A DNA stretch of 64,000 nucleotides from Hericium rajendrae. Taxonomy: Eukaryota; Basidiomycota; Agaricomycetes; Russulales; Hericiaceae. The notes below the pieces were generated by a model that had not been told where the DNA came from, searched no databases, and saw only the letters and a list, made by a program, of their open reading frames with translations. The stretch lies in contig CM065884.1 of assembly GCA_033439255.1 (NCBI GenBank), forward strand, positions 1,612,001 through 1,676,000. The letters are read 5' to 3'. Below, piece by piece: positions 381 to 60,147 of this stretch (position 1 is the first letter of the stretch; each line of letters opens with the position of its first letter). Position numbers and translations under genes: made by a program.

Positions 381-3300
381 ATGGCCGCTTTTCCAGGATC
401 TCCAGCGCCTCGTAAAACAAATCGCACGACCCCACGCTTTTCGCCGCCTCCAAGACGCGTAGTTCGTGTCGGAAGCAGCAAGCCTGCTTCCGCTTCGGCA
501 CACCGACAAGAGCTGCAGAACGTGAACGGCTGTCGCTCATCAGGGACGATGTATCTGTTACATCTGGGATGGATATTGATGATGGAGGTTCTGGTTTTCT
601 CGAAAGAGGGCTGAGGCCGGATACTGTGTTGGCGAAGTCCGATGAATTATTGGTCTCGTTTCATGCACAATTACCGGCCGAGGTGAAGCAGATTCTGCAG
701 GCTGCAGGTGCGTTATGTTTTAGGTCCCACCGGTTCATGCTAATAGCCCGTCCTCCCAGATTTCTTCCGTGATGCATATACAGGTGCTATTGACACTATG
801 ACTGGCTTCGCGCTTGTGGCGACCTTTCAAACGTGTTTCGTCTGGCAATACAGCCAGGTCGGTTTGGTTCTACGCTACGATCAACATAGATGCGTGCTAA
901 ATGATCCGCAGGCTCTCACTGGTATACCCACTTGTTATATATTCTCATGCCCCATGGACCAATCGCAAACAGCACCATTCCATGCATTTGTTCCTTACGG
1001 CATTACTCGAGAGCCAGGGCTCATCCTTATCTCAGCCTCCGGAGACATACGTTTCTGGGATAGTATAAGCATCGGTCTCGCAGGAGGGGAGCATTTTCAG
1101 AAGACGCAGCTCGAGTTAGAGGCAGGCGAGAATGTCACATCCCTTACTAGGTCGGACGTATGTTCTCATCTATTTTTACTCTGGCTACTGACTGAATATC
1201 CTCTCAGCCACAGACATACATTGCCTCTACTTCGAAAGGGCGTCTGTTCCGCCTCGCACTGACTTCATCGGGAGGCAAATATCATCTCACTGCGCGCACG
1301 TTCTCGCGGCCCACATCTTCCATGTCTTTCTCGCGCTTCTTGCCGTCATTATGGTCTTCGCAGATCCTGCAGCCAGAAAGTGGCAATATCACCGCCATAG
1401 CGCTTGGTGAACACAACAGCGTTGGTAGAGATCTTTGGGCCCTTGTTGACTCGCGCATACAAAAATGGAATCTCGCCAGCGAAGGCTGGGAGGAAATTGT
1501 GCAGGAAGAAGATGTGGCTTCCGTCATCCTCCCTGCTATCAAAGAGATGCTTCCTAACGTCGATCAAAATGCTTATCTGGATCTTGAGCTTCTTGATGTC
1601 GCAGTCGAGGCGTGAGTCTTTCATGAAATAGCGGCAAGGTTCCCAGCTGATCCTCAAGGTTGTCTTTCAGCTCAGGTCAACTGGTTTTCCTCACGTCTTA
1701 CAGTGGTACAATAGAAGACGGAGGTATGGGAGTGGACATGACGCCTCGCCGGATATATGCGCTCGTCAGAGTATCTGGTTCTCCCGGTTTCTTGAGTGTC
1801 GAGAAAATCATCACGGTGCCTTACCAAAGCGTACGTCCGGAGCGTCTTATCGTATGGAAGCAGTATTGATGTTGGAACAGACATTTGGTGCTACCGAGGC
1901 CCCCATGCATCCTCAGCTACAATTGGTCGCAGGAGGTGCACTGCTGGTTGTTCAGTTCGGAGATGCCGTCACTATCTGCGCTCGAGGTAACGTCGATAAA
2001 GTCAGTTTATATAAGACTGATACTAATTTCACTGGCTGTAGATAACGCGTACAAGGATCGTATCGAACTCAAGTCGTCGTCAGATCGCACGCTTGGTGTA
2101 GGAGTTGTTGAAGATCAACCTGAAGTGCTTGTTTTGACTGCCTCAGCAATGATCAAAGCCTCCATCGACTTCGATCAAGTTTCCCAATTCGATCCAGAGT
2201 ATGTTTGTCTCTGATGCATGAATAACTCATCTTGACTGAAGAATCATAGGACTGGGAGAAGCAAACTCATTAAATCGATTATGACCCAGGCTATCTTGTA
2301 CGGGTCCCATCCAGAGGTGCGGCGAAGAAATATCCTTTGTTTTACTTCCGAACTCAAATGAGCTCGTATATAGAATCCTCTTCACTTCAGTTTCCCACCG
2401 GAAATCGACGAAGAATCTCTCATGTCTGGCGCGGAACAGCTCAGTCGAGCAGTCCTCGAATCAGGTAACAATATAATCGGAAAGTACTCTTGTCACCACT
2501 GACAGCCTTCTTTCCCTAGATCATGAAGTAGTTCGACCGAATGATGACCTGACATCACAGATGACAGCGAGAAGAGAACGTCTCAGTTTCTTGATCAAAT
2601 TTATCAACGAGAATGGTGTTCTAGGGAAGGTATATCACCTGCACTTGTCATTCATTCGAGTGCTCAATTAGTTCCATAGATCTCCCAAGCATCTCGACAG
2701 CGCCTAGCGTTCGACGCAGAGAAACTGTATGCAGCACAGCAGCTATGGCTGTCTCTCAACGAGTTCTTATCGTAAGCTGCAACTTCGCATATGTGTCTGA
2801 ATACAAGTGCTTACCTTTCGCCAGGCGCGGCCATCAGTACAGTGTGCTGAACGAAGCAGTGTACAACTACATGAATGCGGTAGGCGAAGGCCATCACGAG
2901 GATTTCATGAGGGCCTTCTTCAGGCTGCGGGTCAGCGACCTTGGAAAGCTTCTGTCCCACGTCATGGAAATCCTGCGACGACACCAGAATGAAGCGCCTG
3001 GAGCCTTGCAGAACGTCCTAGCCGAGGTCAACGGCATTTTCTTGGTACGCTCAAGCGCACTCTTATCCTTGCGGCCCGACATTGACATGATCGCAGAATG
3101 TCCTGACATCAGCATTCGAGTTCCGCCAACAAAATAACGGCGTATATGGTCTTGAGCCTCCGCTCGTTAAGCCATGGACGAGTCGAATGGACATTATCTT
3201 GGCACTGATCGAGCTGTTCGACGTCACTGCAAACCTAACACCGACGAGTGGCTCATCTGGTGACTCTAAGTCACAATTGCCGCAGCTCGCTTCGGTTCTT

Positions 3301-7247: not shown

Positions 7248-9159
7248 ATGCTACTCTCGCCAGCGTAAGTACACCCCCACCTCCCCGTTCCTCCATTCAT
7301 CAATCAATCTGCTCCCCCAATTCAGGACATCTAACGCCAGTCTCCCCTCCCAATCCTTCTGGTCCAAGCTCAAAGGTGGATCAGGCGGTGGAGGTGGAGG
7401 AGGAAAGAGCCATAAGGACAAGGAAGCCGACTTCCGCTCCCAGCAGTCAAACATGGCTCTCAGCAGACAGCGCCTGCTGACTCTCGTCTACGGCGACATG
7501 GAGACCGTCCGTATGGTGTGTGGCCCATTCTTGTCTGTCCGTCTCCCATTTTCTGACTTTTAGTGTGGCCCCAGCTCCCCAGCACATTTGCCGTATGTTC
7601 AACACCTCTAGCTCGCTATAATCTCTTATCTGTCTTCCCAGGAACTTGACGCTGTCGCAAGAGACTGGACCAAGCCCCCTCCAGACGCCGTCTTCAGTCT
7701 CCGTGTGCCCATCGACTATGTACATATTCAAACTGCTGTGAGTGCACATTTTACAGTTGACTTGATAGCTCTGCTCACTCTACGCACCAGCGACTTGTGT
7801 CCGGTGATTATGTTTATGTAGGTGTTTGTCGAGACGTTCCGTCGCAATTGCCTGACGCCACACTTAGTTAACCGGTGAAGATTCGTATCAAATAGCGACC
7901 ATGGGTGTCCCTGGTCTGCGAGTCGAAATTGTCAGCGATGCCCCGCCGCCACCCGACGAACCTCCGTAAGTGATTATTTCTGTCTCTGCCCTATATTCGG
8001 CCCTGTAGACGCTCAACTGACCGTTGTTTCTGTTTATGATTCGCCTATGATAGCCCGCCTCCGTATGTGCAAAATCAGGTTTTGTTATGCGTGAAATGCT
8101 AAATGAAACTACAGGCCGCCGCCCGTCCTCGAGATGGACGCCACCTTCAACCTGGAGTTGATGCCCGGACAAATCGTCGCTCTTGATACGACGGTGTCTT
8201 CCGAGGAACTCGACATGGCACGAATGGAAGACGGCACCACTGTAGATGGTGTCTTCTGGGGAAACTTGACATCGTGCATGATGGCGATAACCACAGGATG
8301 GAATTCAGCGGCACGCGTATCGTCGCTGACGACATGGCACCCGACATGATGGTCGACTCGCGCGTCATCACGAAGCTTGCCGAAGCTGCGAAGCCAGCCA
8401 CGGCCAAGTGCCGCCTGAGCTTGCTTGCGCCTTCCATGCAATACTGTGACGTCGTCCTATCGTGCTCCCCCATGTGGAAGATGGGCATCACGTGGCCGCC
8501 TGCGGAAGTGCTCGAGGAGGGCAAAGTCAAATATTTCCTGCGAGTCCACCCTGGCGGCGGGTTCGAACATTTTGAGAGCGAGATGGTTTCTACGTCCATT
8601 TATTACGAAGCAACGTAAGCTCGTCATCACACTCTTTGACCAATTTTCGTGTTCTGACGACATCATCATCGCAGCCCGGAACCTGCGATGCTTGATCCGA
8701 ACGAATTTGTAGCACCAAGAAACAGCTTTGCCATGTCCTTCAGGGACTTTGTTCCCCACCTCATGAATGTATTAGACCAACTGGGCATGTCCATACACGC
8801 CCGCACTGACTTTATCAAGTACGCCCATTTTTCTCGCACGGGCTAATCATTACTGATCATATATGCACAGCACTCATCTGCACTCATTCGCGACACACAA
8901 AAACATTGCATACCGCTTCCTCTCTCCCGGCCGCATCGCCGCCGCCATTGACATGTCCGTCACCGCCGACCCCTGTGTCTTCACGCGGCTCTTCCTCATC
9001 TACCGCGGCGTCCTCGAGGAGGATATGGGCATCTTCGCCGGTGCCGGCGAAAAGGAGGCCAACTCGCACAACTGGCGCGAGGTCGTCGGCTGGTCGGAGA
9101 ACTCGAAGGACACGACAATGTTCCGCGTGCTCGAGACGTCCGTGCTCGAGGTGACATGA
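7248..9159 (+). CDS. Unrecognised conserved-looking protein with Gly-rich and Pro-rich segments
   Basis: I do not recognise the family. The first coding exon is only 17 nt (7248..7264, MLLSPA), followed by a 61-nt intron. Next come SFWSKLKGG, a Gly run, KSHKDKEADF and a long mixed alpha/beta-like region. A poly-Pro stretch is assembled from several exons, including a 9-nt micro-exon at 8054..8062 between two introns. The C-terminal half (HPGGGFEHFESEMVSTSIYY, HLHSFATHKNIAYRFL, MFRVLETSVLEVT) has the codon use and even composition of a real gene. At 8258-8261 (GGGG) the frame changes. One additional base gives the smooth reading VDGVFWG then KLDIVHDGDNHRMEF; a weak-donor intron (starting near 8204) is the alternative. 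It is divergent from the SAP-domain gene, with about 340 bp between starts. No function is proposed. Confidence 0.7.
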
Positions 9160-12008: not shown

Positions 12009-12092
12009 GGGTACATGGTGTAGTTGGTTATCACGCTCGCTTAGCATCATCTTGTATGCGAGAGGTGTCCGGTTCAATTCCGGATGTATCCA
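12009..12092 (+). tRNA. tRNA-Ala (AGC) with a 10-nt intron
   Basis: The acceptor stem pairs GGGTACA (12009-12015) with TGTATCC (12085-12091). It includes the G3:U70 wobble pair, the alanine identity element. The anticodon stem CTCGC pairs with GCGAG and the anticodon AGC is at 12043-12045. Ten bases (12047-12056) sit one base 3' of the anticodon, the standard eukaryotic tRNA intron position. The T-arm contains GGTTCAATTCC. Confidence 0.93.
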
Positions 12093-12580: not shown

Positions 12581-12664
12581 AGGTCCTGCCAGGAATCGAA
12601 CCTGGGTTCCAAGAAACTCCGCAAGAGTCAGAATCTTGAGTGATAACCGCTACACTACAGGACC
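12581..12664 (-). tRNA. tRNA-Gln (CTG) with a 12-nt intron
   Basis: Read on the minus strand, the acceptor stem GGTCCTG pairs with CAGGACC. The D-arm contains TAGTGTAGCGGTTATCA. The anticodon stem CAAGA pairs with TCTTG once about 12 bases after A37 are removed as an intron. The anticodon is CTG. The T-arm is CCAGG TTCGATT CCTGG. All features fit a eukaryotic glutamine tRNA. Confidence 0.92.
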
Positions 12665-24811: not shown

Positions 24812-27182
<2,371 letters not shown>

Positions 27183-41040: not shown

Positions 41041-41824
41041 ATGCGCATAGACAAGTGTTACTTTTGCTCTAAGAGCGTTTATCCGGGCCATGGTATGCTT
41101 TAATTATATCATCGCTTATCGTTATAGTAAACCTCGCGAATTAGGATCGGCATTCGTGAGGAACGACGCGAAGGTCTTTCGCTTCTGCACTTCAAAGTGA
41201 GTCTTTCCGGTCAACATAAAGAGACCTTCAGATGCTCATGGTATACAGATGTCACAAAAATTTTAAGTGAGGCTTTATCTTGTCGTAGTCATTCCATGCT
41301 CAATCCCTTGCGCAGGATGAAGCGGAATCCCCGGAAGGTGCGGTGGACCAAGGCGTTTAGGAAGGCCGCCGGGAAGGAAATGACAATTGTGCGTGTCGCT
41401 TATGTGTCCCCCATTGATCTCCATGCTCAGCCCATTCTTAGGATTCAACTATCGACTTCGAGAAGCGGAGAAACGTTCCTGTTCGCTATGATCGTGAACT
41501 GGTGCAGACCACGATCAAGGCCATGAAACGGATTGCCGAAATCAAAAAGAAGAGGGAACACGCTTTCTGGAAGAACAGGTATGACTTGTCTTGGAATGTA
41601 TATTTCTGACCTTACGACTTCCAACTCCTAGAATGGTGGCAAGCAGAGAAAAGCTTCGCACGCATCGCAAGAAGAAGGCGGATATGAAACCTTCCGTCAA
41701 ATTGCTGGAACCTATGGCGTCGACTTCCGAAGAGAAAGTCAAAGAGAAGATCAAGGTGCCATCAAAGTCAAGGAGCGCCCTCATCGCTGGCGAAGGGCGC
41801 TCCATGGGTATGGACATCGATTAA
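41041..41824 (+). CDS. RLP24: Ribosome biogenesis factor Rlp24
   Basis: Nuclear placeholder for ribosomal protein eL24 on pre-60S particles; it recruits the AAA ATPase Drg1. The L24-type zinc finger is clear: [18 protein letters not shown], then [20 protein letters not shown], giving C-x2-C and C-x3-C pairs. Next come [37 protein letters not shown] and [13 protein letters not shown]. The Lys-rich C-terminal extension separates it from eL24 itself. It includes an 18-nt micro-exon (TGTCACAAAAATTT within it) between two introns. It is about 195 residues and intact. The start is 176 bp from the divergent SPT6 start. Confidence 0.95.
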
Positions 41825-42036
41825 CGACCACGAATCTATCACGCGTGCCCCTCATTGATTCACGATTCTCAAAAGTATTCAGGTTGTAGAGTTTCCGGAA
41901 AATATAATGCAATATATTGTACACGTGCATGCTATGAGGACTAAACGTGAAGTGCAGAGGTACAAATACAATGGGTTCGAAAGCAGGTAATGAAACAGAT
42001 ACTAATACACACATCCCAATGATAGGAAACCAAGAA

Positions 42037-45000
42037 TCATCGCTGTTTGTATTTCGTTTCGTTCTCGCGACGAACATCGGGATCCATGGAGTTGTGAATG
42101 CCCATGAGAGCCTTGCTCACAGCCTCGCTGGCCCCTATCATGGGCTTCAAACGGCAATGGGGACAGCTCGAATGACGGCACGGACGGGACCCTAAATGAC
42201 GATGTCCATCAACAATCTCGCTGTTGAAGGTAAACGTTACTGACCTCGTTGCCTGACCGCTCGTATACCTCCATCGGCACCGCAAGAATGGTTTGAGCCG
42301 CAGAATTCAGGTTTCGTCTCAAGCTGGTGTAGGCAGTTTGTATGCCCTCCTTGACGTCCGTGGGCTGTTCAGCATATTTGCTGATGAGATCACCGGTCTC
42401 TCTGTCAACGCCCCATTCCTGACTAGACTCCATGATTCCTTCGTCTTCAGGAGAAACGGGCATCATTTCTGCGGTAATTGACTCATTAAATTGACTGCCA
42501 AACACGTTCTCTGCTTGTTCAAGGATAACCTGGGTGCCTGTGGCTAGTCGGGCGCCGAGCTTCACAGCTTCCATGGCCGTTGACTTGACAAATGCTTTAG
42601 TTCCCCTTTGCACTCCTCGGACAACGCGGCCATCCTTCCTGTACTGCGCAATCGGCAACAAAACGAGGTCGGCCACCCCAGAGCCCACATTGACAATGGA
42701 ACGAATCGGAGCGACGCCAGAGATGATCTCGGCGAGCTGAGTCGCTTTCACATCAGGCGTCCAGAGGTCGTTCAGCAGGTCAAAGAATCGAGCCCAACCC
42801 GTCACCTAATATATGATCAGTTACCATGATAGGCGGAACAACGGCCAAACCTACACCAGATACTGTTATATGCCGCAATGTCATTTCTGCGCCGTCGAAA
42901 TGGAAGAAATTCATGAGTTCGATGGTCTTCCCATCTCGCAGAGCTCTGTAATCGACACGCCTCGGCTTGTAATCGAGTTTTAATCCAACAGGGAAAACTT
43001 CTGCTTGCTCTGCAAAGGCAGATAAATGAATATCAGTAGACTGCGCGAATTAATCAATCCTTGCTTACGGAAATATATCTCGTTGCTGGATGAGGGCTGG
43101 CAGATGCGGCATTGGGGTCCTGGAAACTGAAGAACTTTTTGAGGAAGTCCAAGGCGTCCTGATCAACATGGAGGCGCAATGGAAGAATCTTGGCCTAGAG
43201 CACACTTTCAGCGGCTGTCACTGGCTCATTGACAGTGTCGGCACTTACACGAAGTCTGGCCTCCTCCGCAGGATTTCCTGGTACCGGGCACACTGAACGA
43301 AGCTCGATGCGAACCATGTTCGACCCTGTTTCGCGGATATTTCCTCGAGAATCGGCCCAAAGCGCTGACAAGAACTTCCGCCATGTCGAGGTCTTGACGT
43401 GATCCAATATCTCCACATCCTTGACTGTCGCAAATGTGCGGCAAACAAGCTCCTCCCCAGGAACATAACGGTCGACATCTGCATTCAGTCCCATGAGTCT
43501 GAACTCGATGCTGGGGCTTTTCGACCTAGTAAGCTTTTGACTGCGGGTACCATGAGTAGGTTGAGATGCAGTTCTCCCGGACGGTTGTGATTGGTGTCTG
43601 AGTGACTGCCACGAACTTTGGCTGGCTGTGTCGAAGTCTTCCCTCAGCTCTTCGTCGATGGCCGCAAGAGCCGCCTTTGGCTCTAATTCTGTCAAGTCTT
43701 GCTCCAAACCCACGTAGACCGAATTGAACAGCAGGGTACTTGTCTCATCCACACTGGGATCATAGGACTGTCCGCTGGCGACAAGCTGTCGAATCCTTGC
43801 CAGCCGCCGCTTCATTTCCTTGATTTCGTTCTCGATGGTCTTGCGAGTCGAAAGCCAATCGTAGCCTTCATAGAGAAATAGTGTGACCTGACTATCCAGG
43901 ATACGAATGGACTCCCGTGTTTCACCGAGCCTATTTAGGTCAATAGCATCATGTTGGTTGATGTCTATACTAAGAAACTCACTGTGGACTTTCTTCCGAG
44001 ATGGCAGGGAGTGAATCAAAGTAATTCTCCACCGCATGAATACCTTCAGGCCGCAGCAACTTGATAGTCTCGCCTCCGATTTTCGACGTTATCCCAGCTT
44101 CACCTGCGACGAGAGGTGTATTGTCGGAAACCACATCACTTTCGTCGAAATCATCCAGGTCCTCGTCCTCCAGCACGCGAAGACCCGCTGCTGCACCAAA
44201 GGAAGTATCCAGGTACTCGGGGTTTGAAGGCAAATCATCATTGATCAGGTCCGGGGCAGCTCCGACCTCGGGCACACGGCGGAAAGCTTGCTCATCTATG
44301 GAGGCTAAGAAGGCTTAGACAAGACTCTTATATTATAAAAGAAACTTTACCTAAGAGCTCGTTTGAAGAATCCTGTTCCTCGGAGATCTTTGTGGGCTCG
44401 CTCGTCATCGGAGGTTTCTCCCTGATAATACAATTGAGTTTTGATTCGATGAAACAAAGAATAAACATACAAATCGTCATCCTGTTTGCTGAATGCTGTA
44501 CCGAAGTCGCTCAGGAAAGCACCTAGAACAGCTCCCGTGTCGGCACAAAGATGGATATTTAGTGCCAACCCATCAACGATGACCTTGATTGGAACGGCGT
44601 TAGACTGAAAAACCGTTCAGTAAAGAAGCCAGCTGACCTCCAAATTCGGCACAGTGTCACTGGTTTGTGTGATCTGGAGATTTAATCCGGACACTTCAGC
44701 AATGAGGGCGTATTCCATCCTCTAAAGCAATAATCAGCAAATCGGCATCGGCAAAAAGAAAAATAGTAATAAACAGACCTTCCAGAAGAGCAAACAGCCC
44801 TGGGATGATGGATTCGTGACCGGAGCGACAGCCTCTTCGATGATTGTATGATCGTCATTCAACAATGCTGCAAGGGAATGCACCGACAGGTCAAAAACCA
44901 TCTTCGGAGAATTGCCAACTATGTTCGTGCTGAACTGCAAATCCCCCAAATGAACCACGAGCGCCCCCTTGTGCTTTATTGAAAAAAGGCGAATAGAGCT

Positions 45001-48000
45001 TTCCATGACCTTGACAGCGACTTTTGTCATCTCACTCGGCACGACAGATTCAAATACCTGTATTATATACTTCAGCATGATTTCTGGTCAGCAGCGGAAT
45101 GTCGACGTACCCCTGGAGGTGGCTTCACAAATTGAGCGAGATCGTTGGCCCATCGCAGATCTGGATTGAAGTTGTAAAGGAAACCGAACAATGTAAGATT
45201 GACCCTCGACTCCTTGGAAGTTGACTCAGGAACCAAGAGAGAGGCGAAGCGGAGTTTGACAATGGGTCGGGAATTGGCCAGCTGCAAACTCTATGAACAC
45301 CCCGAACAGATGCGCTGATTTTGGCAACTCACCATGGTCTGTGAAGTTATCGACGAGAACAACGGTTGAGGCAATGTGCTGCCAGCGTCGAGGATATTCA
45401 AATCCGAAACGGAGAGTGTCAACACCGTCTCATCCTTTTCATGCAGTCAGTAGTGTAGTCTGCACAAAAAAAAAATCAAAATACAAACCTTGCCCTCAGG
45501 CTTGAGTTCAAGAAGAAGATCAACATTCGAAGCAAGCACGTCGAAGGGCTTTGTGGACAGTGACTTTCCATCTTCTTCCCGAGGTAATATAAGCCTCAGG
45601 GAAACTGGTTTTCGTAGCGTCAGATTGGTCCGACATGATTGCCTAACCTCGTGAACCCACCTTCGGCTATGACCATTTTGACGATAGTTTCTGCTGCCGC
45701 GGTCCGCTCCGTCCCACCCATAGTCCCCGACATGCTGCTATCCTTACTACCCATCCGAGATCCCTTTGCAAAATATTTGCTGCCTATCAAGCTGGGATTT
45801 TGACTTGAGCTACCTTCCTTCTCGTCATTAATGGGTGCCAGTAAGCGCTCGACTAGCTGAGAAACATCGTCTGCCCAGAATTGCAGACCATCGAAAGTGG
45901 ACTTCGTAAGGCTGACTTGGACAAATGGAATGTCCACTGTAGTAACCAGACTGGGTGGGCTCATTGACGTTGCGGAGGAAGGCCGCGGAGGGTTTGTCCG
46001 TGCCAAGGACACAGAAGCAGGCGTGTGTATCGCAGATGATGCAGACGGCGAGCCCAGACATACGAACGAAGATACTCTGTCTTGGCCATTCAGTGAGCAA
46101 GCGAGGATGACTCGCTGCCATTCCACGGCCAGCAAGTAATCTTGCTCTGGAGAATACCGAACAAAGGTGTCATGGGGTGTTTCACCCGCGTCCGCGAAGC
46201 GCGTGGTAGGTTGCGGAGAGGATGGGTGTGAGAGTAACGTCAAAGAATGAACGTCCAGAATGAAGGCGCCAGACCGAACAGACTTCCCAGCCGGAGGCGG
46301 ACATCGTACTTGTATCCTGACCATGGGTATGCGGAGTGTCACCTTCAGGGCATCATCCTTTTTGAATGGGCGTTTCTTCTAAAATATTGCTTCTCAACGA
46401 CTGCTATTTAACGACATGCCAGACCCACCTTATGCCTTGCATGACTGCGAGACGATCGTAGTAGGGGGTCGAACCCGTTTCTCGGTAATCGATCGACAAA
46501 TCCAGGTCTTCCAACACAAGCTTCTCGAGGCGACGTCTCTCCCTTTCTCTTTCCTTCTGTTGTTGCCGCAAGCGCTGAGCACGGCTTCCTTTGGGAGTTG
46601 CTGGTGGCGTATCTCCACCGCTGCTTTCTTCGCTGCTTTCTTCGTCGAGCTGATGTAAAGTTGTGGGCTCACCGATGGTTCATGGTCGAGCGATTTGGCA
46701 GGACTTTCCGATATGGTATTCATGAACTGCACGTATTGGCTCGAACCATGGGCTTCCTGGTCGAGCAGCGCGAGATCTGTAAAGAAGTGTAAAGGAGCGA
46801 TGTCTACATCCACCGTGTTCGCCTTCGCACGATCATCTCCCGTTCTCTGTCCTTCCCTCGCGGACGAAAACAATTGCATCCGTACAGATAATGCGGTACC
46901 ATGCTTCAAAGAGTCGTCAGTATGAATGGGCACATCAAAAGGGGGAGATTTCCCAAAAGATGGTCGAACTCCCGAGGAAGATACGTGACGGCTTTTTGAG
47001 GAGCCTTCGTCCTCCATGTGGACAATTTCGCTTGTGTCGTGCGGTTTGATGGATCAGTCCAGTCCGAGACGTCGAAGGTGGGAAGAGCTGGCGTATCAGA
47101 GGGTGGGACGCTGAAAGTGGTATCATGCGCATGCGGAGATGCTGGGCCGGACGAGTGGAACCCTTCGAAGGAATATTGCGAAGGCAGGTGAGGATCGGTG
47201 ATTAGGAATGGCACAACAGATCCATCATCCCGGGGGCTAGCAGCATTGAAGACGCATACGGAGAAGTCGGCGATTGTCAGATGGGCAACAACCTTGGTCG
47301 TGGACAGTAGCGAAGCCGAGGTGCGCTGTGGCCTGCCAGCATCCCGAGGCTTCGAGGTTTCCTTGATGGAAGTGGTGATGGTGTTGACGGAAGCAGTGGC
47401 ATCGATTCTCTCTATGAGAACGCGAACATAGCTGCAGGGGAACTTGTGAGGTACAAGAGGGTGGGCAAAGAATGCAGATTCCGGCTCTATCATTCCATCC
47501 ATAGTCTTTTCTGAGCTGCCCTGTGAAGGCAGCAATAGAACTACAATCCCTTGGCAATGAAGATGGGCGTCGACCTGATCGAGCATGGATAAGGGTGAGG
47601 AAAACCCCTTTGATGCCTTCTTCCCTTCCGACCCTGGGGATGGTGCTGAAGGACGACTCCGGGAAATAGATTTCTGAACAACATCCAAAGTTTCCGTGAC
47701 ATCACGGATCTGCCAAGCCTGCAACGCACATGCAATCATACCCATCGTTACCTCAACCTTGACTTGACCAAGATCCTTGTGTCTAGAGGACTGGGTCGAC
47801 GATCCAGGATGAGCCGTGGAAGCTGTATTGGTACTGGGAGGTGATGTCGGAACTGGAATCTCGCCAGAGCCGGTAAGGGAAGTGGTGACACGTATGAGTA
47901 TAGGCGTCGAGGACAGGGAAATGATGCGGTGCTGGTCCTCGGGCAAGATAAGCGACGGCTTTGAGGTCGATTGGCTATGAGGTGGCGATGGATCTCGGAG

Positions 48001-49304
48001 AGATGAATTCGCACTTGATGAGGCTTCAGCATTTTGCTTCGCTTCGGGAATACCGTCAAGAACCTCCTCAGATCCCTCCTGTATGGTAGTTATGGCACTC
48101 TCGAACATGCTACTTGCTGTGGTACTTGCTGGAGACGGTGGTCGCGCTTCAGGCCAAGCTGAAAGAGACTGGGTGGGTAGTAATGTGATGGATTGGGACA
48201 TGAGGAGCTGGGTATCTTCGTCCATATCCGAATCAGATTGCGGCTGCGGCGATGGCGACGATGGAGAGGGAGAAGATGCGAATGAGGAGGAAGAAACTGA
48301 TGGATGTATCCTAGGCGCTTCCTGTTTGATTTCGATGTCGGGCAGGTCGTTGTGAGGCAAAGTGTGAGGCAAAGTGTTGGCAACGATGACCTCTTCAGGT
48401 GTGCTTTCTTGACGACGAAGATCGAAGCAAGACAGCGCGACACCTGACAAAGATATGGACCGCATCTCGCTTGCCTGTGCGCTCGCGGAGGCATCGACGG
48501 GTTTGGAAGATGCTGCTGATTCTGGATCCCGACCATAACGTATGTCGGAGACTTTGAAGGTGTATCCAGAATGGGACAGATGGATCAAGGTTATACTCGT
48601 ATCTGTGGCGTCAAATTCGAAGCGCGACAAAAGACGTTCTATCATTGTCGCGAATATCGACACGCCGGCGGGGTCCATATCCGGGTGAGCTTCTTCGTCA
48701 GTACTCACGAAAGGATCAAGACCGCCGGGCACGACATCGTGGAAAGACACAGACGATGAAGCCAAGTCAGGATGAAAGGATTCACGCAGGGAAGCTTCTT
48801 CTCCTGGACTGAGCTCATGGTGCAGGAATGACTCGGCAACGCTCACGACCGACTCGGCGATATTGGCTGACTCTTGAACAACGACCTCCTTCACTTCTTC
48901 ATCAAGATGAAAAACAAGGTGGAGAGCTTGGATTGACAAGCCAATGTTGGCTGTTAATGGATTGGGCCATGGTATCCGTGCCGTAACGGAGGATATAGAG
49001 CCATCATGGAGTTTGACAGGCAGCCCTACAAGCAGAGCATTAATAACCTCGAGAGAAAGCACATCAGTCATGGGATTTCAATGTGAGGTGAGTAACTTAC
49101 ATCGTGATCGAGCTCCAAGTCCCGCACCTGAACGTATCCCGAGCCGATTTGCGAATCTATCTGTTGCACGTCGAGCTGTCCTGGCTTCAAGAAATGTCCT
49201 AAGCTACGCCTCAGGACAAAGGAGATAAAACGACGTTGTATTGAAGATGGTAAGGAGAAGTCAATGGATGGCAGTTGCAGCCACGAAGGAATCCAAGACG
49301 CCAT
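42037..49304 (-). CDS. ATG2: Autophagy lipid-transfer protein Atg2
   Basis: Bridge-like lipid transporter that feeds the growing autophagosome from ER contact sites. The N-terminal chorein-type start is [13 protein letters not shown] with [18 protein letters not shown]. One 2.2-kb exon (46906-49071 region) carries long Ser/Pro-rich insertions. The conserved C-terminal CAD region has [57 protein letters not shown] and [15 protein letters not shown]. The frame breaks at four homopolymers: 42149-42151 (AAA), 43093-43095 (GGG), 46657-46659 (AAA) and 46993-46997 (T5). In each, one additional base restores family sequence, for example PIAV then [10 protein letters not shown], and APQK then SRHVSSSGV. 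Four independent breaks in an otherwise conserved gene argue for assembly errors. Length would be over 2,000 residues. Confidence 0.93.
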
Positions 49305-49508
49305 TGTGCATGGTAGCACTAAGCAGAGCAAGGGAGCAGGAGAACCTTAGACCTCGAAGCGGCGCGCTGACCGTACTAGCGCGACGTCAGCGCACGTGCT
49401 CGTGCGACCGTCACGCCGGCCGTCGGAATTTCAATCCTGTGGACTACTAACTAGCACGAACGGCGAGCAGGATCTTGGCTTACTCTAGTACTATACTTCT
49501 GGCCGCCG
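49305..49508. promoter_or_regulatory. Divergent promoter region of ATG2 and SGNH hydrolase 1
   Basis: 204 bp between two outward-facing start codons. It is GC-rich and contains ACGTCAG and GCACGTGC, the latter with a CACGTG E-box-like core. No TATA box is clear. Confidence 0.4.
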
Positions 49509-50565
49509 ATGTCCAGTCAGTCTATCCAGCTCGATACCAGCTGGAAAGGATTCAATGCCATCAGAAACCTCGTTATCTTGTGAGTACATAACCAATGATA
49601 ACATGAGCTGGACCTAGAACTTTTGTGCAGTGGAGATTCCTACAGTGCTGTGGGTTACGCATCCAACTTGAAGGAACTAAAACCATCGCGCGAACGACCT
49701 CTCGGGATAGACTTTCCCGGTATTACTTACAACGAAGCTGAAAAGCCGAATTGGGTCGGACATCTCATCACTTCGTTCATCCAAGGTCGCGACGATATTC
49801 TTGTTTATGATTATGCGAAGGGTGGTGCTACAGCGGCGGGTATCGTCCAACAAGCAACACATGCGTTCCTCCCGCACGTCGGCCAGAGGCCTGAATGGGC
49901 ACCTTGGAACCCCTTGGATACCCTTTTCAGTAACCGGCCCTTTCAGTCGTTCTGTTTTTATATCTGACCTGCGTCAAACTCCCAGTAACATGGGTAGGGA
50001 TCAACGATTGCGCGTAAGATTCTTTCACATCCAACCCTCTGATCCGCTCATTGACATCATCCAGCTTCCTAAGGAATGTCCAAGATGTCCAGAGACCTAT
50101 CGAACGGGTTTTCGACATTCAAGACGAGCTTTATGTGCAGGGCGCACGGTGTTTCCTGTTTATAGATGTCCCTCCCATCGAGCGATCTCCTGCAGGCAAA
50201 TTTTCCAGTTCGCTTTTGTCACTCGTTTAGCCGTTGATGTCTCTTGTAGTCAGCAGCCGCACTGCGTCAAGCGAAGCCCGACATTCTTCGAGGCGTGGAA
50301 CGCTCAGCTACTTTTCAAAGCTCAGGAGTTTGCAGCCTCTCACCACGATGCAACAGTTCTGCTGTTTTCCTCTTGGAAGACATTCAGCAATGTCCTGGAT
50401 GATCCCGCAGCTTACGGATTCGCTCCAGATTCGAGTCGTCAGAGGGGCGGTGACATCTGGTTTGATCACCTCCATCCCACTTCGGCGATGCACGCCGTCA
50501 TTGCAAAAGAGGTTTCTGAATTTTTGTATACCCAGGCTCCGGGTCAGTCAACTACGAAGGATTGA
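49509..50565 (+). CDS. SGNH hydrolase (GDSL/CE16-like esterase), copy 1
   Basis: Serine esterase of the SGNH fold; fungal CE16-like members remove acetyl groups from xylo-oligosaccharides. Block I is LVIFGDSYSAVGY (Ser nucleophile, split by the first intron 49580..49630). Block II has YDYAKGGATA, block III WVGINDCA, and block V WFDHLHPTSAMH with the Asp-x2-His pair. Other motifs are PLGIDFPGITYNEAEKPNWV and FIDVPPIERSPA. I see no signal peptide at the chosen start, so it would be intracellular unless an upstream exon exists. The intron 50196..50249 uses a GC donor. At 50277-50279 (CCC) one base appears to be lost, between TASSEA and TFFEAWNAQLLF. Copy 2 lies about 8 kb to the right. Confidence 0.85.
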
Positions 50566-51018
50566 AGGCAGTCTCCGGAGGGTCCGATGCGTTTGATTTG
50601 ATGCTACGTTTTCTGCGTTATACACCCTATACCGCGAGTTACATATATCAGCTATCACTGACGTGGACATATGGGCAGACATGTTGAGTTTGGAACTGAA
50701 AACCGCTCGCGTGTTCAGTAAGTATTTAGATGCTTGTCATTTGACTCCGTTCCCGTATCCCGTATCCCGCATCCTGGGCCTGGGCGCTTGAGCGCTCGCT
50801 TCAACCATCGATCAGTCGAGGACATCCAGGAAACAGAAAATCCGCCGGACAATCCGCCGGACTGTCCGGCGGGTAGGAGGTAGCCGGTCGGGGCGGTTAG
50901 CCCGGCAAGGTCCATGACCGATGGTCCGAGACCGTTGCAATCGCGTGATGTCCTCGCACGTGTTGTTGAACAGACGCGTCGCTAGATATTTCCTCCTGCC
51001 CATCCCCCGCTGCCCGCA
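50566..51018. other. Spacer with palindromic elements
   Basis: About 450 bp between SGNH hydrolase 1 and the CxC5/CxC6 gene. The only structure I see is the CGGAC-type palindrome cluster described separately. There is also a short run of CCCGTATCCCGCATCC repeats near 50755-50772. Confidence 0.5.
50841..50873. repeat. Two adjacent palindromes of type CGGAC-N-(G/A)TCCG
   Basis: CGGACAATCCG at 50846-50856 and CGGACTGTCCG at 50858-50868 sit inside a larger CCGCCGG-rich inverted array. CGG...CCG half-sites are the usual target of fungal Zn2Cys6 regulators. A third copy with the same core is at 57292-57302, upstream of the second SGNH gene. Function is inferred only. Confidence 0.5.
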
Positions 51019-53253
51019 ATGAAGCTTGAATCTCTGCTGCCGCTGCTTGTCGATCATCCAAACTTGCTTCACAATCTATCTCTGTTTCAAACTATGGACT
51101 TTATCTCTTGCTGTTCTATGCTGAAGCGTGAAATCTGCTCCGCCCAAGCATCTTTTGCGGATGGCTCTGCTGCCCCGGAAATCCTTCCCCTCTCAGTCCG
51201 CTGCTTTCTAGCTGATGCACTTCTGATTCCTTTTGAAGTTCTGCAAGAATGCTGGGATGTTCTCCGAGAAATCGCATGGCAGCATGCACCTCCAGATACG
51301 GATAGGAATCGTCTACGATCCATAATGGAAACCCATGGATTGTGCAGGGGACTTGGTGCGTTTCCGTCGTCATCTACGCTTCATCTGCTGATCATTTCCA
51401 GCAGCTCTTCGTACATTCTATCCGCCTCAAGATGTCTGTGACAACCCGACATGTACCAGAAAGCCGCCTCTTCGTAGAGAGATAGTCCGAAAAGCGGTCG
51501 CCTTCACACTTGCCGACGGTGCCTATCCAACGTGGGCCATCATACGACATTGCAATGGTATGTATCTACCTCCTCTCTATGCCTCAAACTGATGATTTGG
51601 ATAGACTGCCATATGATGTACCACCACAATTTCACTGTACGGGACGATCAGCGCACATACTATCCAGGTATCCCGGAGTTTCTTCAAATCGGAGAGCATC
51701 AGTTTGCAGAGACGGCACTCGTCGCTATGTGGATCGATATGATGCTCGTATCCTGGTATGTCCATTTCTCCATTTTCCTTGTACTGTTCTGAATTGTGAC
51801 TGGGAGCAGGGTTTCTGCTACAGGATGTGCTACGATTTATGGGCTGACGCTTTCGCGGCGTGAGAGGCATGTCGAGGCATGGCCTTTGACCTTTGACCTT
51901 ACCACGGAGCACGTGTGGGATGGATTCAGCACACTATCCCTATTGCGGGACTGTCAACGCCGTGACGTTTGTCTACACATCCCGCATAGCGGCCTACAGA
52001 AGGACCGGTTTGCACACGCTATGCAAGAACGGAATGAGCGCATCATCAGGGAGGGGCAGCCAGAGCTTCGGCATTTCTGCGGGAAATGCATGCGTGTGTT
52101 TCCACCGGAAGATAGCTCTTCATATCCTAGTAATGTCTCTCATTTCTTGACCGGCCATCCTTGCTGACTTATGTGTTAAGGGAAGATACAGCCGATCGTA
52201 ATCGACGGAATTACCATTGGCCACCCGTGTTGCGGTGTGTTCCGCTGTACGGAACCTCTAGCGAACAATCGACATCGCTTTTGTCGGACGCATAGCCATC
52301 ACCATGACATCTGTGCGGTCGAAGAATGTTCTCGGCCTGTTGTTCCAGGACGCAAGGCATGCGATTTAGCAGAGCACCAGACCATGGAGGAGCTGCATTG
52401 TGCACGAAGCGCCGCCGCATTTCAGCTCAAACAGCGCCTCCAGCGCATGTCCGTCACGCATCTTACTGATTCCCTCGCAACCGAAGCTGCAGATGGGATC
52501 AACGACTTTGAGGAAATGGACGAATGGTTTCAAGTATCGGATGGTGATGTTAGCGTCCACGTCAAGCCTGTTGGCAGTTCCACTGGACAGTCAGACTTGC
52601 CAGACCTCACGCCGCAATGCGAGGGCAAGTCGGACAGCGGGAATCGCAAGATCAAAGCCCTATTCGGCCGTCGTCGGACTCACAACCAGGAAATAATCCT
52701 GCGAACGTGTGGAATAATCGTAGCGCGGGCTACGTTTTTTGGGGCGGAAGCCATCTCCAATGTGATGGTTCGTCGTTGTTTTTCTCTCTTGCAGGTCCAT
52801 TAATCAGGTTTTATAAATATATAGCACATGGTGAAGGTCGTCTTCAGTATTCCCGGTGCTCAAAAACCGGAGTACTTCATCTTCGACTGCAGCTGCAAGA
52901 CCCTCCGTGAAGCGATCGCACGCAACGACACCTGGTTCAAAGACATCGGCATGCCGGTGGATAATTTTCACATGCGGAAGCACAAAGACTCGGACGTGCT
53001 CTGCAAAGCGTTCTGTGATGCGAGTAAGTTCTTGGAGCTCAGGGGCGAAGACGGCAAGAAATCGTGGTTCAACACGTCGGTTGCGGAGCAGGGTAATGTG
53101 TGGCTCGGAGGTTACCACTCCATGTGCAGAGAGATGACAGCGGTGAAGTTTGATTTCTTTCTTGACGAAATGATAATGCTCCGCAATCAGGCTACTGTGG
53201 CACGCTTAGAGCGCCAAGGTTTTCACCCAGGCTATGCACCGCTTGAGGGATAG
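51019..53253 (+). CDS. CxC5/CxC6 cysteine-cluster protein of the KDZ-transposon-associated type
   Basis: Basidiomycete genomes carry proteins with CxC5 and CxC6 cysteine clusters associated with KDZ transposases. This spliced protein is about 600 residues. The N-terminal part reads LESLLPLLVDHPNLLHNLSL. The CxC5 region follows, with CDNPTCTRK and HCNDCHMMYHHNF, then TEHVWDGFSTLSLLRDCQ and HSGLQKDRFAHAMQERN. The CxC6 region has DGITIGHPCCGVFRCTEP, NNRHRFCRTHSHHHDICAV and GRKACDLAEH. The C-terminal half carries FGRRRTHNQEIILRTCGII, KPEYFIFDCSCKTLREA, MPVDNFHMRKHKDSDVLC and NVWLGGYHSMCREM. The intron before MVKVVFSIPG is 60 nt. All junctions are in frame, so it looks intact. No KDZ transposase is present in the window, so this copy is solitary. 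Host domestication or a mobile remnant are both possible. Confidence 0.85.
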
Positions 53254-53521
53254 AGCACATTACTTGGGCCTATACTGATATGATCTATCTTGTACTTCCC
53301 GTTCTTGATTTGTATCATGGCAATCCTCATTTTTATCTCCTCGTAGTTGCTGCGGCCAATATCCGTGTGACATTGTTTGGCATATTTATGAATATCTGTG
53401 AGGCCCGATATAAGCAATCGTCACCATGTTCGACTTTCGACTCTCATTTATCATCTCTCTCTTCTCTCCCTGCGTCTCCTTCCTGCCAGCCGCTTATTCT
53501 GCAGACACCAGCAACAAGAAG

Positions 53522-54462
53522 ATGCCCAAGATTTTGACCCGTCCTACTTCTCGGGAGTCTCGCAGAGGGCGCTCGTCATTAGCGGGCTCAGCCAGTGTTT
53601 CGGTGACAGTAGGTCTTCTCGTCATGTTTCATCCCGCTACATCTAACGTGCCCACCGCGTTCAGGATCCCACACCTACATCGACTCGGCGACACTCAGAT
53701 ATACTGGGTCTTCGTCTCGGGCTTTCTCTCGCTGAATCAGCTGGGCTTGCAGATCGTCCCGGCTCTCTTCCCGCAAACCCACAGACTTCCAGCACATCTA
53801 CCCTGTCCTCTGACGGTTTGACGACCAAGCATGTCTTGTATGCATCCCTGGATTTGGTCTTGCCGCTCTTGGGTGCTCCAGTTCTCATGCCGCCCGCGTC
53901 TTCACTTCCCGACGGCGGATCTACAGAATACAAGCGTTGCTCCTTATGTAACAAAGGGCGCCGCCCAGCAGCTTGCATTCACAAGATGTGCAAGACCTGT
54001 TGCACGTTCTGGCGTGAACGTTGTACCTATCGCTCCCATAAACCCTCCGACACCAACACGACGTCCACGATACCGGCGCCTTCTATACCTGCTTCTGTTA
54101 CATCGATCACCGCGGACACATCCCTATCCATTCCTACCACGTCTCATCGCACATCCTTATTACCCTCGGTCTCTACTGCATCTACATCTTCAATAAGCAC
54201 CACAGAATCTGGGCTCTCAGTATCTTCTACTACCGACTCCTCTACCCACACGATGACTTCTACTTCTCCTGGCGCTCTTTCCTTCATCCCTGAGTGGTCT
54301 CTCCGTGTGGACCCTGCTGCTGAGGCCGACAAGTGGTTCAGAGAGCTTGATCCGGAGGATTGGGATAGGGTTATGCATGACGAGGACGGTAAAATCATTC
54401 CTTACTCGCTTCGGCCTCGCGCAGAGTATCTCACTGAGGAGCAGCGTGCGCAGCTCACTTAA
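53522..54462 (+). CDS. Unrecognised Ser/Thr-rich protein with a compact Cys/His cluster
   Basis: I do not recognise the family. Two exons: the first starts at 53522 (MPKILTRPTSRESRRGRSS) and ends before a GTGACA donor near 53605. The second starts GATCCCACACCT after a GCGTTCAG acceptor and runs to 54462. An in-frame ATG at 53426 would add a hydrophobic, signal-like N-terminus, but the basic Ser/Arg start seems more natural for a nuclear protein. The key feature is a cluster C-x2-C-x8-C-x4-C-x2-CC-x6-C-x-Y-x-S-H (RCSLC ... ACIHKMCKTCC ... CTYRSH) near 53935-54035. A long Ser/Thr-rich region and an acidic C-terminus with PEWSLRVDPAAEADKWF follow. The same kind of cluster occurs in the neighbouring gene at 54820..57080. 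Confidence 0.6.
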
Positions 54463-54819
54463 GGGGCCAACAATGTACTAGACAGACTATCATTCCGATT
54501 CTTTGACTTGTATTCGATTTGTATAAACTTCTCTTTACTTTGGCAATGATAAACATAAACCCTTTCGCGTCCCGCCTGGCAATGATGCAACTCGCTCGAA
54601 AAAAAGCAATTACACGCTCCGTCGCCGCGTCGAGGTCGAGATCTGGCGATGGGGACAAATTATCTGAGATTCACTATATGGATGATACAAATCTAGACAC
54701 GGAACATGCGAGTAGGCTGGGGAACTACATAGAAATGATGTATGTTAGATTGAAAATGAGGAAGACTTGGAGTACAACGACACCGAGATAGTGTGAAGGT
54801 GAATAGGAATGATATAACT

Positions 54820-57080
54820 CTATCGCAGACGCCTATTGGTTGCGAATGACGTCCAACGCCCATCATACGTCCTGCCTGCGTTGAGCGCAGCCTGTCGATC
54901 AGCTTCTGATGCACGGTCCCAGCGCTTTCGGGCATCATGATACGTTGACTTAGCCCACGTTCTTTTGAAGACTCTCTGGAAGCGCTGAGGCAACGTCATA
55001 TGAGGTACGTCTTTCAGGCGATCTATCTCATTGAAGCAGGCAAGCATGTCCACGACATACATACACGCGGGCCATGCAGCTGACGAGATATCTTCACTAT
55101 CCTGAACGGCAGGTGCAACGAGTGAAGAAGATGGTGCGGCCTGGAGCGACGGACTCGAGGCCTGCGGTGGGGACTGCACGGCAGGTGACGAGGCAGGCAT
55201 TTGAGAGCTTTGGGACGGTGTCGGACCAGAGAATTGCGCGGCAGGTGATGAGACAGGCATTTGAGAGCTTTGGGATGGTGTCGGACCAGAAAATGACATG
55301 CCCATGTGATTCTCCATGGGAGTGGGAGATGGTGAAGTGAGGTCGATAACGTCAGACGAGGAGACATTGGCTGGAGGGAGCGACAAAGGTGGAGAGAATG
55401 AGAAGGACGCAGGTGACGATGGAGCAGGCGACGACCACACAGGAGGGTCCATCAGCGATGGCATCTTTCCCTCCCAGATGCCTAAACCGTTGGTAGCCAA
55501 GGACGGTGTTGGTGCCAAAGATGCAGACGACACGGATGAAGATGATGACTCGGCCACCATAAATCTTGGTGTACTCGCCTCAGAAGGTGTCGAGACCTGA
55601 GATAAGGCTGCTGGTGAAGCACCCCCTGCGATATCCTCCAGGCGACGGCGACGATGAGCAGGACCTAAAGATTCGTCGCTGCTCTCCTGCGGCCGTTTCT
55701 CCAGACTACGAGACGTTGCACGACTGCTTTCACTTGAGGCTGCCAGACGGCGTCGATGCTGCTCTTGCCGCGATTGATCTCGTTCGAGGCGCATGTTGTC
55801 ATGGATGTGAGGATTGCGCAACCTCAGATCGCCCCAGATGGTAGTTCGTTCCTCGAAGTCAACGCACGTGGTAACTCCATGTCGGCGAATGAAGACATGC
55901 TCGTCCGAATCGACTTTGATTACTTGATCAAGCGTGTTCGTGGCCCAGGCTTTGAGGCTCCAACTGTAGCGAGAGATCATGTCCGTCTCCGGAGGTTCGC
56001 AGTAACTTGGAAGAACGGACTGAAGACGAGAGAGGGCCCACGTGGGCCACGTATGTTTGGGAGGGTTCACCCAGCGCACAAACGAGAAGCTCGTGTCCTA
56101 TGGTATCATGTAAAGAGATATGGTCAGAATGCAATCGGGTGAGAAGGATGGATTTCGCACCGAATCCCAGTACACTAGAAGGAAACGCTGCTTGATCAAG
56201 CGTTCATTCTCCCGCCTCTCTTCTGCAGCGTCCCGAGAAGAATCTCGTGTGCTGACATTGCGGTTCCATACGTCCATCCAAGAATCTGTCATTTGCCTTG
56301 AGAACGTGAGGGTTCCAGGACCTGTTGAGGGCCCATCCACAGGCGCAGAGTCCACTGAATTGGCGGTCGAGGGAGCGGATATGCCAGTAGCTGAACCTGC
56401 ATACCATGCCTGCGCGGCGTCCAAAACAGCTTGAGAACGGTTTGATGGACGGTCAGCGCTAGCGTCAGGAAGCTGCAATTGATCACAGTCATCTGGAAAT
56501 AGAGCGTGAATATTTTCGCAATCTATTTAAGGCAGATTAAACACTGTGATCACGTACTGTTGGCTGTCGAGGTTATGGCCGGAGCTACTGCCACTCCACT
56601 GTGACTGGTGTAAGAGCATCCGCCACTCTCACAACAATGCTTCTTGCACATGTTGCGCTGACAATTGCCAGCAATGCGTACGCTCGCGCAGGAGTGAAAT
56701 ACGCAGCGTCGTTGCCCGCCCTCTCCCGACGTAGTACCTGCTGAGCCGCTGGTGCTCTGTTGCCGCCCGAGCGTCAGCGCAGGTGCAGTTGAAGGCTGCG
56801 CAGGCGGGCGCACTGCTGGTGGCCGCTGTGTTGACGCCGCTGGAACAGAGAGAGATGGCATTGATGCTGACGATTGCAGTACGCCGCCGCTGCCGCCGCC
56901 ATAGCTGGCTATGCCAGCTTCCTCTGGAGAACGCAAAAATGAGCACCATTTACACGTCCCACAGTAGATAAACGGTTTTCCGTCCTTCTTCGAGGGGCTG
57001 AGGAGCTGCTGGCAGTATGGACAGTGGTTATGATGCCCGATTAGTGGAGGCGGCACTATGATTCTCGTTCGGGGGGGCAT
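54820..57080 (-). CDS. Unrecognised protein with N-terminal zinc-binding-like motifs and Cys/His cluster
   Basis: No known family recognised. The N-terminus has a zinc-ribbon-like segment, HCPYCQQLLSPSKKDGKP then IYCGTCKWCSF, loosely resembling GRF-type fingers. A Ser/Pro linker follows, then a cluster RCVFHSC, AGNCQRNMCKKHCC, GGCSYTSH of pattern C-x4-C-x8-C-x4-C-x3-CC-x4-C-x-Y-x-S-H. The middle part has FSRQMTDSWMDVW and WVNPPKHTWPTWALSRLQSV. A long Ser/Pro-rich region holds a 20-residue tandem duplication, and the C-terminus is basic (VFKRTWAKSTYHDARKRWDR). Introns near 56080-56140 and 56490-56560 join exons in frame. The architecture suggests a nuclear nucleic-acid-binding protein. It lies in an accessory region beside the KDZ-associated gene. 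Confidence 0.65.
55181..55300. repeat. 60-bp tandem duplication inside the Cys-cluster gene
   Basis: Two 60-bp units (55181-55240 and 55241-55300) differ at only a few positions and encode FSGPTPSQSSQMP-type repeats of 20 residues. The duplication keeps the reading frame. Confidence 0.85.
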
Positions 57081-57455: not shown

Positions 57456-58582
57456 ATGTCGAAGACCATGAAAGAGAACGACCACAAGCTCGGCTCTGCG
57501 GCAGAGTTCATGTCCACTCTCATCCAAGCAGGTCCTCGCTGGAAAGGGTTTGACCAAGTGAAGCATTTTATCGTCTTGTGCGTAGAACATCACTTCCCCC
57601 TTGGTTGCCATCCCTTATTCCTCAAGCTTATGTTGCTCAGCGGTGCCTCGTACTGCGACGTTGGCTACAGTCATAGGGAGACACATCCGACAGCAGAACG
57701 ACCTCTCGGGGTTGATTTTCCTGGCGATACGTACAATGAGCCTGGAAAGCCTAACTGGGTCGGACACCTGGTGACAATGGGGCACAACTTCCTCGTCCAT
57801 GATTATGGGAAAGGAGGCGCCATGGTGGACGGCGTCCGCTACCAAGTGGAAACTGAATTCCTCCCTCATGCCGGTCAGAAGCCTGACTGGGCAGCATGGA
57901 ATGAGTCCAATAGCCTATTCAGTAATGCGCCTTCATGCATTGCACGAGTGATTCTCTGATCATGTCCTCCTAGGCACCTGGGTTGGTATCAACGATTGCG
58001 CGTATGTGCTCAATACAAGTCTGCTATGTTATTCCGGCACTAATACCTCGTTATTAGCTATATTCGCGAACCAGCCAAAGTCAAAGGGTCGATTGACGAG
58101 CTTTTTCTCACACAAGAAAAGCTCTATGAGGCGGGGGCTCGGAACTATGTCTTTGTCAATGTACCTCCTATTGACCGGTCACCGGCAGGCAAGTCAGACT
58201 CGCAGGGGGCATCAGTGTTTTATTAGAACTCATTTCTTTTTGACTCAGTGGGAGATCGCCGAATGCCATCGAGCGCGCAGGTTTTCAAAGCTTGGAACGC
58301 CCAGCTGCTTATCCGGGCCAAAGCATTTGCAGCATCGCATCCTGATGCGACGGTCATGATTTACTCTTCTTGGGCTACTTTCAACTGTGTCCTAGATGAT
58401 CCCATAGCCTATGGCTTTGCATCGGGTTCAGAAAAAAGGAAGGCGGAGATATCTGGTTCGATCAACTTCACCCTACATCTGCGATGCACGAGATAATTGC
58501 CAAGGATCTGCTCGAGCTTTTGCATGGGCGGACCTCCAATGACCTGGAAGTTCCTTCCAAGTCGGAGGACGCGGCGGCATGA
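57456..58582 (+). CDS. SGNH hydrolase (GDSL/CE16-like esterase), copy 2
   Basis: Paralog of the gene at 49509 with the same exon layout. Block I reads FIVFGASYCDVGYS after splicing, so the usual Asp of Gly-Asp-Ser is Ala while the Ser is kept. The other blocks are normal: HDYGKGGAMV, GTWVGINDCAYI and, after frame correction, WFDQLHPTSAMH. Shared motifs include PLGVDFPGDTYNEPGKPNWV and VNVPPIDRSPA. The intron 58189..58248 uses a GC donor at the same position as in copy 1. At the A6 run 58432-58437 one base appears to be lost. Without it the reading frame leaves the family sequence before the catalytic Asp/His, and with it the gene ends at 58582. Activity of the GASY form is uncertain. Confidence 0.82.
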
Positions 58583-58845: not shown

Positions 58846-60147
58846 CTATACAATCCTAAGGCAATCATCATTATCACCCGTCGTGTATATGAGCCCTTCG
58901 TCAAGCAGCTCCTCGATGGCTTGGCTGATGGCACAGCGTGGAGTTGAGGATCACCTACGTCGAAGGGTGGAACCTATGCGCACCTGATTTGTTGAGACGT
59001 GACGCCCCTATGATTTAATCCGCTGCATACAAGAGTGACGGGGACGCCACGCTCTCCATGACTCGTCTCGTTGTTCTTGATCTGAAGTAAGACGTCCCGT
59101 TGCAACGAGGTCATATACGAATATGGATCACGGCAGCCATCGGGTACGACTGAATCAAGCAATTCCTCTTGCGGTTCTGGAGATGGAGAATGAGGTGGGA
59201 GATGAGGAGACGTTGGCACGGAGACGAAGTCTCCCTCATCGTCTGAATCACTGTCAGAGGCGACTAAACTGCGATCTGTGACGGTGTGAGATGCGTCTGG
59301 GGAATGGGACTCGTAGGGGCTGTCCCTAATTGTGGAGCACCACGAAAAATCAGAGTGCTTGGCTCGGAATTCTGCTGAGAATGTCGCGGGGTAGAGGTGG
59401 TGAACGGCTGTGTTTCTTCAGCTGGATGGTGCCGTTCGTCCAGGTCCTCAGAATAAGTCTCCATATCGACGGTTGGAAGAGAAACGTCGTGGTTGCTCTC
59501 GGCTTCCAATATTGAGGACTCTTCCGAGCTCGAGGCTTCTGATCCATCCGATGTTTCGTCCAGCTAGATAAATCAAATTAGCAATGAATATTAAGGCGGA
59601 AAAGAAGGAAGGCTTACCGATGGAATTCGATCGTAGTGTAGCAGAGCGATCATTGCCTCCAAAAGGTGGTGGAATGGTTCGTGCATATCTATTACACGAC
59701 GTAATGACTGGACCTCCAAACGATTCACTCCAGAGAATCTACCCAGCTTTGCAATGATGCGAACGTAGCAATGAGCACTGCGAGATATGGTGAGTGACTA
59801 GTACGATGAGCGCTCAGAGCCAAGTGTCTAGACTTACGGTATCTGTTCAGGGACTATGGCGTTTCCTGCTTTGTCGGCATCAATCCATCGTTGCGCCATA
59901 ACCCGGCCGGGACTGCCATCCTCAATATAAAACTTGTGCATTTTGGGGGTTTCCTGTACATCAACAACATGTCCGACAACGGTGACCTACGACGGCCGAC
60001 AATCGGCATGGAACGTCAGGTGTGTACTTGTTCCATGCTTACTATTTTAACTTTCATTTTATCGACCTCGAAGTCGGCATCCGAGTGAGCCTGAGTCGCA
60101 TTCAAAACCTGGAGCACGGTCAGCGGACGGAGTGCTCCATAGGCCAT
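58846..60147 (-). CDS. Divergent RPA32 (Rfa2)-like single-strand DNA-binding protein
   Basis: A second, diverged copy of the RPA 32-kDa subunit; the standard copy is at 61968..63125. It begins MAYGALRPLTVLQVLNATQA, equivalent to SLRPLTIKQLYNATQA of the standard copy. The OB fold follows (VTVVGHVVDVQETPKMHKFY, EDGSPGRVMAQRWIDAD, AHCYVRIIAKLGRFSGVNRL, MHEPFHHLLEAMIALLHY). After a long acidic Ser-rich linker comes a C-terminal winged-helix-like part (SLQRDVLLQI, then SQAIEELLDEGLIYTTGDND). The Gly/Ser-rich N-terminal tail is missing at this start; an upstream exon starting near 60308 might supply an N-terminus. At 59299-59302 (GGGG) one lost base explains a frame change in the linker (IPPDASH... 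DSDSDDEGDF). Role uncertain: alternative RPA subunit or decaying duplicate. Confidence 0.75.

Follow-up and report, generated by a model that had tools for sequence, protein, structure and literature searches.

Single-base frame breaks recur in conserved genes along a 64-kb stretch of the genome of Hericium rajendrae NPCB A08 (C7:1612001–1676000; the window), and are almost certainly errors left behind in the consensus sequence when the assembly was published. They most likely represent a known kind of sequencing error and a property of the record rather than of the living fungus. The genome comprises 46,767,965 bp in 19 contigs. Its published description, in the text available, reports a largest contig of 5,307,752 bp, an N50 of 3,238,877 bp, Nanopore R9.4 reads assembled with NECAT, polishing with Racon (twice) and Pilon (twice, with Illumina reads; project PRJNA1018320), and then purge_haplotigs (PMC10608310), and hence error-prone long reads are the base of the assembly. 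The same text describes NPCB A08 as a dikaryon with a heterozygosity of 3.61%, and gives BUSCO values of 91.6% for this genome versus 96.4 and 97.5 for two relatives, and 13,418 gene models versus 10,620 and 12,369 in two relatives; frameshifts, indels or pseudogenes are not mentioned in its main text (PMC10608310).

The 14 sites listed in an earlier note, made from the sequence alone, were read in three frames with anchors chosen by eye on both sides (ten residues each, one of nine). The number of bases between anchors left a remainder of 2, that is, one base short (or two over), at 13 of the 14 sites, and a remainder of 1 at SPT8 (about 30320), in agreement with the frame changes claimed. 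The count of eleven genes likewise held: a Nup133-like gene, an unnamed gene, a CMR1/WDR76-like gene, adenylate kinase, a Coq11-like gene, SPT8, SPT6, ATG2 (with four sites), two GDSL esterases and an RPA2-like gene, several of these names being ones that we presume. The observation is confirmed, but the list missed a break in SPT6 near 39088 and breaks occur outside the window as well. Their reported location in homopolymers or short runs is true, but weak as an argument: runs of at least two bases lie near every site inspected, most listed sites touch runs no longer than four, and runs of five or six are touched only by 46995 and 58434.

Frame breaks in the window (positions from its first base).
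Gene and location	Position	Strand	Reading and evidence
Nup133-like, near N terminus	497–498	+	One base short; frames, remainder 2
Unnamed gene 7901–9159	8258–8262	+	One base short; gene model: missing base at 8262
CMR1/WDR76-like	9807	+	One base short; gene model: missing base at 9807
Adenylate kinase	16375–16376	−	One base short; AK3 (2ak3) alignment crosses break
NAD-dependent epimerase	18542–18548	−	One base short; frames, phase count
SPT8, low-complexity linker	30300–30345	−	Other phase (remainder 1)
SPT6, between HHH and S1 regions	37250–37257	−	One base short; Pfam pieces
SPT6, second break	39085–39091	−	One base short; absent from the earlier list
ATG2, C terminus	42149–42151	−	One base short
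ATG2	43093–43098	−	One base short; gene model: missing base at 43098
ATG2, N-terminal half (probable assignment)	46657–46659	−	One base short; frames
ATG2, N-terminal half (probable assignment)	46993–46997	−	One base short, A5 run; frames
GDSL esterase paralogue 1	50277–50279	+	One base short; frames
GDSL esterase paralogue 2	58432–58437	+	One base short, A6 run
RPA2-like, linker	59299–59302	−	One base short; least certain

With queries that carried an X at the break position, an alignment ran through the break at 5/14 listed sites (16375, 37253, 42150, 43094 and 58434), and at six sites in the window when 39088 is counted. In SPT6, all eight SPT6 chains listed align beyond the break near 37253, where the gene model described below puts the missing base at 37250. 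The second SPT6 break lay hidden because the adjoining intron (39106–39157) and the missing base together leave an open frame; it was called by the gene model at a penalty of −9, not at −12 or −14. Once the intron was taken out and the X put in, human SPT6 (6ted) aligned ungapped across 39088 with 61.4 bits, compared to 49.1 bits for the straight read, in which that stretch was lost. Three of the five chains listed span this break, and the other two start after it and score nearly equally with both queries. Some errors therefore escape a stop-codon search. ATG2 reads as one long minus-strand gene (42000–49350), and positions 1384–1697 of the 1697 in the ATG2_CAD profile were matched in one stretch across the breaks at 42150 and 43094. 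For adenylate kinase, the best alignment (2ak3) has a four-residue gap just upstream of the break; of the 60 chains listed, 26 extend past the break and 34 end at least seven residues before it. The two GDSL-type esterases are neighbouring paralogues on the plus strand (49700–50565 and 57600–58579; 66% identity over ~320 bases). A Lipase_GDSL match crosses the break at 58434 with 29.0 bits (cut-off 23.6), and at the corresponding place the paralogue at 50 kb stays in one frame.

The readings at 497, 8259, 9807, 18545, 30320, 46658, 46995, 50278 and 59300, which lie outside these alignments, consequently draw on open frames, composition and the sequence expected of the family. In the Nup133-like gene a Nucleoporin_N match lies downstream of 497, and the break is outside any matched domain. 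The gene at 7901–9159 had no Pfam match, and the gene at 9807, which we take to be CMR1/WDR76-like, had no relevant one. For the gene at 18545, presumably Coq11-like, the only Pfam match above cut-off, Epimerase, stops short of the break, and the PDB search matched no chain. Weak Beta-prop_SPT8 matches, under the curated cut-off, flank the SPT8 break on both sides with none spanning it, and the RPA_C match of the RPA2-like gene lies downstream of its break, not across it. No Pfam match was obtained for the open reading frame at 46906–49077, on the upstream side of the 46658 break; we presume that a chorein-like N terminus of ATG2 lies at 49071–49346 and, on the same footing, assign this region to the N-terminal half of that gene.

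Breaks were found spread over the genome rather than at one locus or in one family, in chaperonin genes on contigs C7 and C5 and in calls, mostly predicted only, in the flanks of the window. A search with the chaperonin family found ten gene places, and we read the main exons of nine, though not every terminal exon. Three of the nine carry one break each: CCT1 (C7) and CCT5 (C5) are one base short and CCT4 (C7) is one base long, with alignments crossing the break in each. In the other six genes read (whose subunit names we presume), no break was seen in the main exons. Inspection by eye of HSP70 and proteasome tables revealed no zero-gap frame change, in a blunt check that would catch only CCT4 of the three chaperonin breaks.

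A gene model trained unsupervised on 264 kb (the window plus 100 kb on each side) made 26 calls at penalty −9 in 103,821 predicted coding bases, 15 for missing and 11 for extra bases, some of them false by eye, and at penalty −12 called 13 missing and 8 extra bases in the 264 kb. It recovered planted deletions and insertions almost equally (197/240 and 200/240, respectively), and so favours neither sign. Over the 264 kb the two signs are less unequally represented than in the 13 of 14 of the earlier note, whose attribution to systematic base loss in the assembly stands as regards assembly error but not as pure loss, since CCT4, USP7 and probably SPT8 are in the opposite phase. The calls at penalty −9 were uneven: the 100 kb preceding the window (L009–L018) had four extra bases and none missing, the window six missing and two extra, and the following 100 kb nine missing and five extra. 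The model had no gene at 9/14 listed sites and called a break at 4/14; given how few it covers, we use it as a supplement and not as main evidence.

Outside the window, the second call in PP2A-B56 is one base short, with an alignment crossing the break, and USP7 is one base long, likewise with a match through the break. Other candidate calls in the flanks fall in genes that we take to be NAA25-, RAD54-, RAD9- and Eaf1-like, among others. The first call in PP2A-B56 was not counted because it lies outside the inspected alignment (3 of the 14 chains listed extend over it). The calls at 22080, 31750 and 47575 and the one lying 23159 bases ahead of the window were rejected because by eye they resemble small introns, low-complexity sequence or the ends of genes; those in L030, L031 and L035 (gains of 1.8, 2.1 and 0.5, respectively) and in L033 were discarded after the main exons had been read, and the second call in L038 is an intron.

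Could the breaks be ordinary introns that had been overlooked? The earlier note had found no workable intron, and we scored GT–AG candidates of 40–200 bases, located no more than ~30–60 bases from the anchors, that restore the frame and leave the junction free of nearby stops, using splice-site matrices from the 263 introns that our own gene model predicted in the 264 kb. Every one of the 14 sites has at least one such candidate, and frame-restoring GC–AG and AT–AC pairs also occur at many sites (among the first eight listed per site, unscored). Against these, the best GT–AG candidate falls at or under the lowest 1.5% of the predicted introns at 12/14 sites, where the claim therefore holds and GT–AG introns with normal splice signals, as judged by that scoring, are lacking; at 497 it scores under all of them. 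The claim is less certain at the two weakest cases, 50278 and 59300, which keep better options of middling score. At 50278 the GT–AG option, at the 17.5% mark, would delete the entire upstream anchor, and an intron at the position of the paralogue's intron would start with a GC donor; at 59300 a 44-base GT–AG option stands at the 7.2% mark. When frameshifts were forbidden, our gene model set an intron at 43086–43135, placed gene boundaries within SPT6 (37242 and 37120) and had a further boundary at 8350. The intron can be read in favour of introns, and the placements match the note's expectation that automatic gene models would invent introns or truncations at such points; this was borne out at three of the four called sites but not at 9807, where neither occurred within 150 bases. 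Given the scores at 12/14 sites and the matches that cross 5/14, overlooked introns are very unlikely to account for the breaks.

Alternatively, the breaks could be real frameshift alleles, with the genes broken in one nucleus, whose haplotype was assembled, and working copies supplied by its partner. The strain is indeed a dikaryon with 3.61% heterozygosity, and single-base breaks in recognisable genes are what pseudogenes or null alleles show. No second allele appeared in a genome search with 23 kb of the 64-kb window, and the search with window positions 36000–55999 found no second copy other than the GDSL paralogue, so that a partner allele would be invisible in this assembly. However, at a density of 26 calls, some of them false, over 103,821 bases of predicted coding sequence, a large share of the genes of each nucleus would be broken, including chaperonin subunits and, twice, SPT6, all of which we take to be essential. 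Such fungi should also be viable as homokaryons, which counts against null alleles. Unlike pseudogenes or null alleles, moreover, the breaks are not confined to a single contig, affect several conserved housekeeping genes and have long family-like stretches on both sides. Real alleles are hence highly improbable, and the preference of the earlier note for assembly error over pseudogenisation is upheld by the recurrence in housekeeping genes on C5 and C7, the occurrence of both signs and the history of the assembly. Programmed −1 ribosomal frameshifting at most sites would, like the breaks, join two frames without an intron; a −1 shift would mend the phase at 13/14 sites, and an in-frame slippery heptamer, GGGAAAC, is present at 8259 (8255–8265). 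This was the sole case among 18 sites scanned, the other 17 having no in-frame X_XXY_YYZ heptamer; in contrast to programmed frameshifting, there is no common slippery site, breaks are of both signs, and they affect unrelated housekeeping genes whose proteins, to our knowledge, are not known for it. We consider this explanation improbable in the extreme. It is also most improbable that the genome holds thousands of real single-base breaks tolerated via nuclear complementation or translational read-through.

Residual consensus errors could have arisen if R9.4 base calling dropped or added single bases in short runs, and if the short reads of two divergent nuclei were then aligned against a single reference that was itself collapsed or mosaic. 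Such mapping may have left many errors despite two rounds of Pilon, and we infer that errors would have survived them because reads of nuclei differing by 3.6% met a collapsed or mosaic sequence, heterozygosity thereby causing polishing to fail; the genes would be intact in the living fungus. Residual indel errors of Nanopore assemblies have reportedly been treated by Watson and Warr in 2019. In the available text on a MinION assembly, false deletions made up most indel errors and were linked to runs of 2–8 bases (PMC12007338), and in that on another assembly, short-read correction raised BUSCO completeness from 65.1% to 97.9% (PMC9172067). The breaks resemble the Nanopore residual indels described there in being single-base, with deletions exceeding insertions, in short runs and with broken gene models, but differ in the two Pilon rounds and the strongly heterozygous dikaryon of the present case (PMC12007338). 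Several points speak against assembly error: two rounds of Illumina polishing normally clear most such errors; the calls are uneven, with only extra-base calls, all of them predicted, over the 100 kb that precede the window; the HSP70 and proteasome tables had no zero-gap frame change by eye; and the runs at most listed sites do not exceed four bases.

As a non-coding comparison, repeat copies proved too scarce and too divergent: the closest pair shows 7 substitutions and 1 single-base gap over 1277 bp, not enough differences for a judgement on the error rate. A search for U5 snRNA gave three full-length matches, and tRNA matches were scored for the top 63 among 1780 candidates; neither bears on base errors. 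The window itself begins within a dispersed repeat of ~1.2 kb that starts ~890 bases before it and ends at 1–290 (15 genome matches including itself, the best other being 97% identical), and contains tRNA-Leu and tRNA-Gln genes detected by ARAGORN (12009–12092 and 12581–12664, respectively), of which only tRNA-Gln reached the Rfam gathering score. In the 264 kb, C runs of six numbered 12 versus 26.7 by a first-order estimate, with the other three bases closer to theirs, a difference that we do not use as proof.

The contiguity of the NPCB A08 assembly is very good, but, judging from this sample, many of its genes have the wrong number of bases. More generally, when a genome scan meets frame breaks in unrelated housekeeping genes, the sequence record should be suspected ahead of biology. 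Altogether, the artefact is an ordinary one, yet it is a warning about the gene models of this assembly: care is needed with the 13,418 models, with intron counts and with claims of gene loss until haplotype-aware repolishing.
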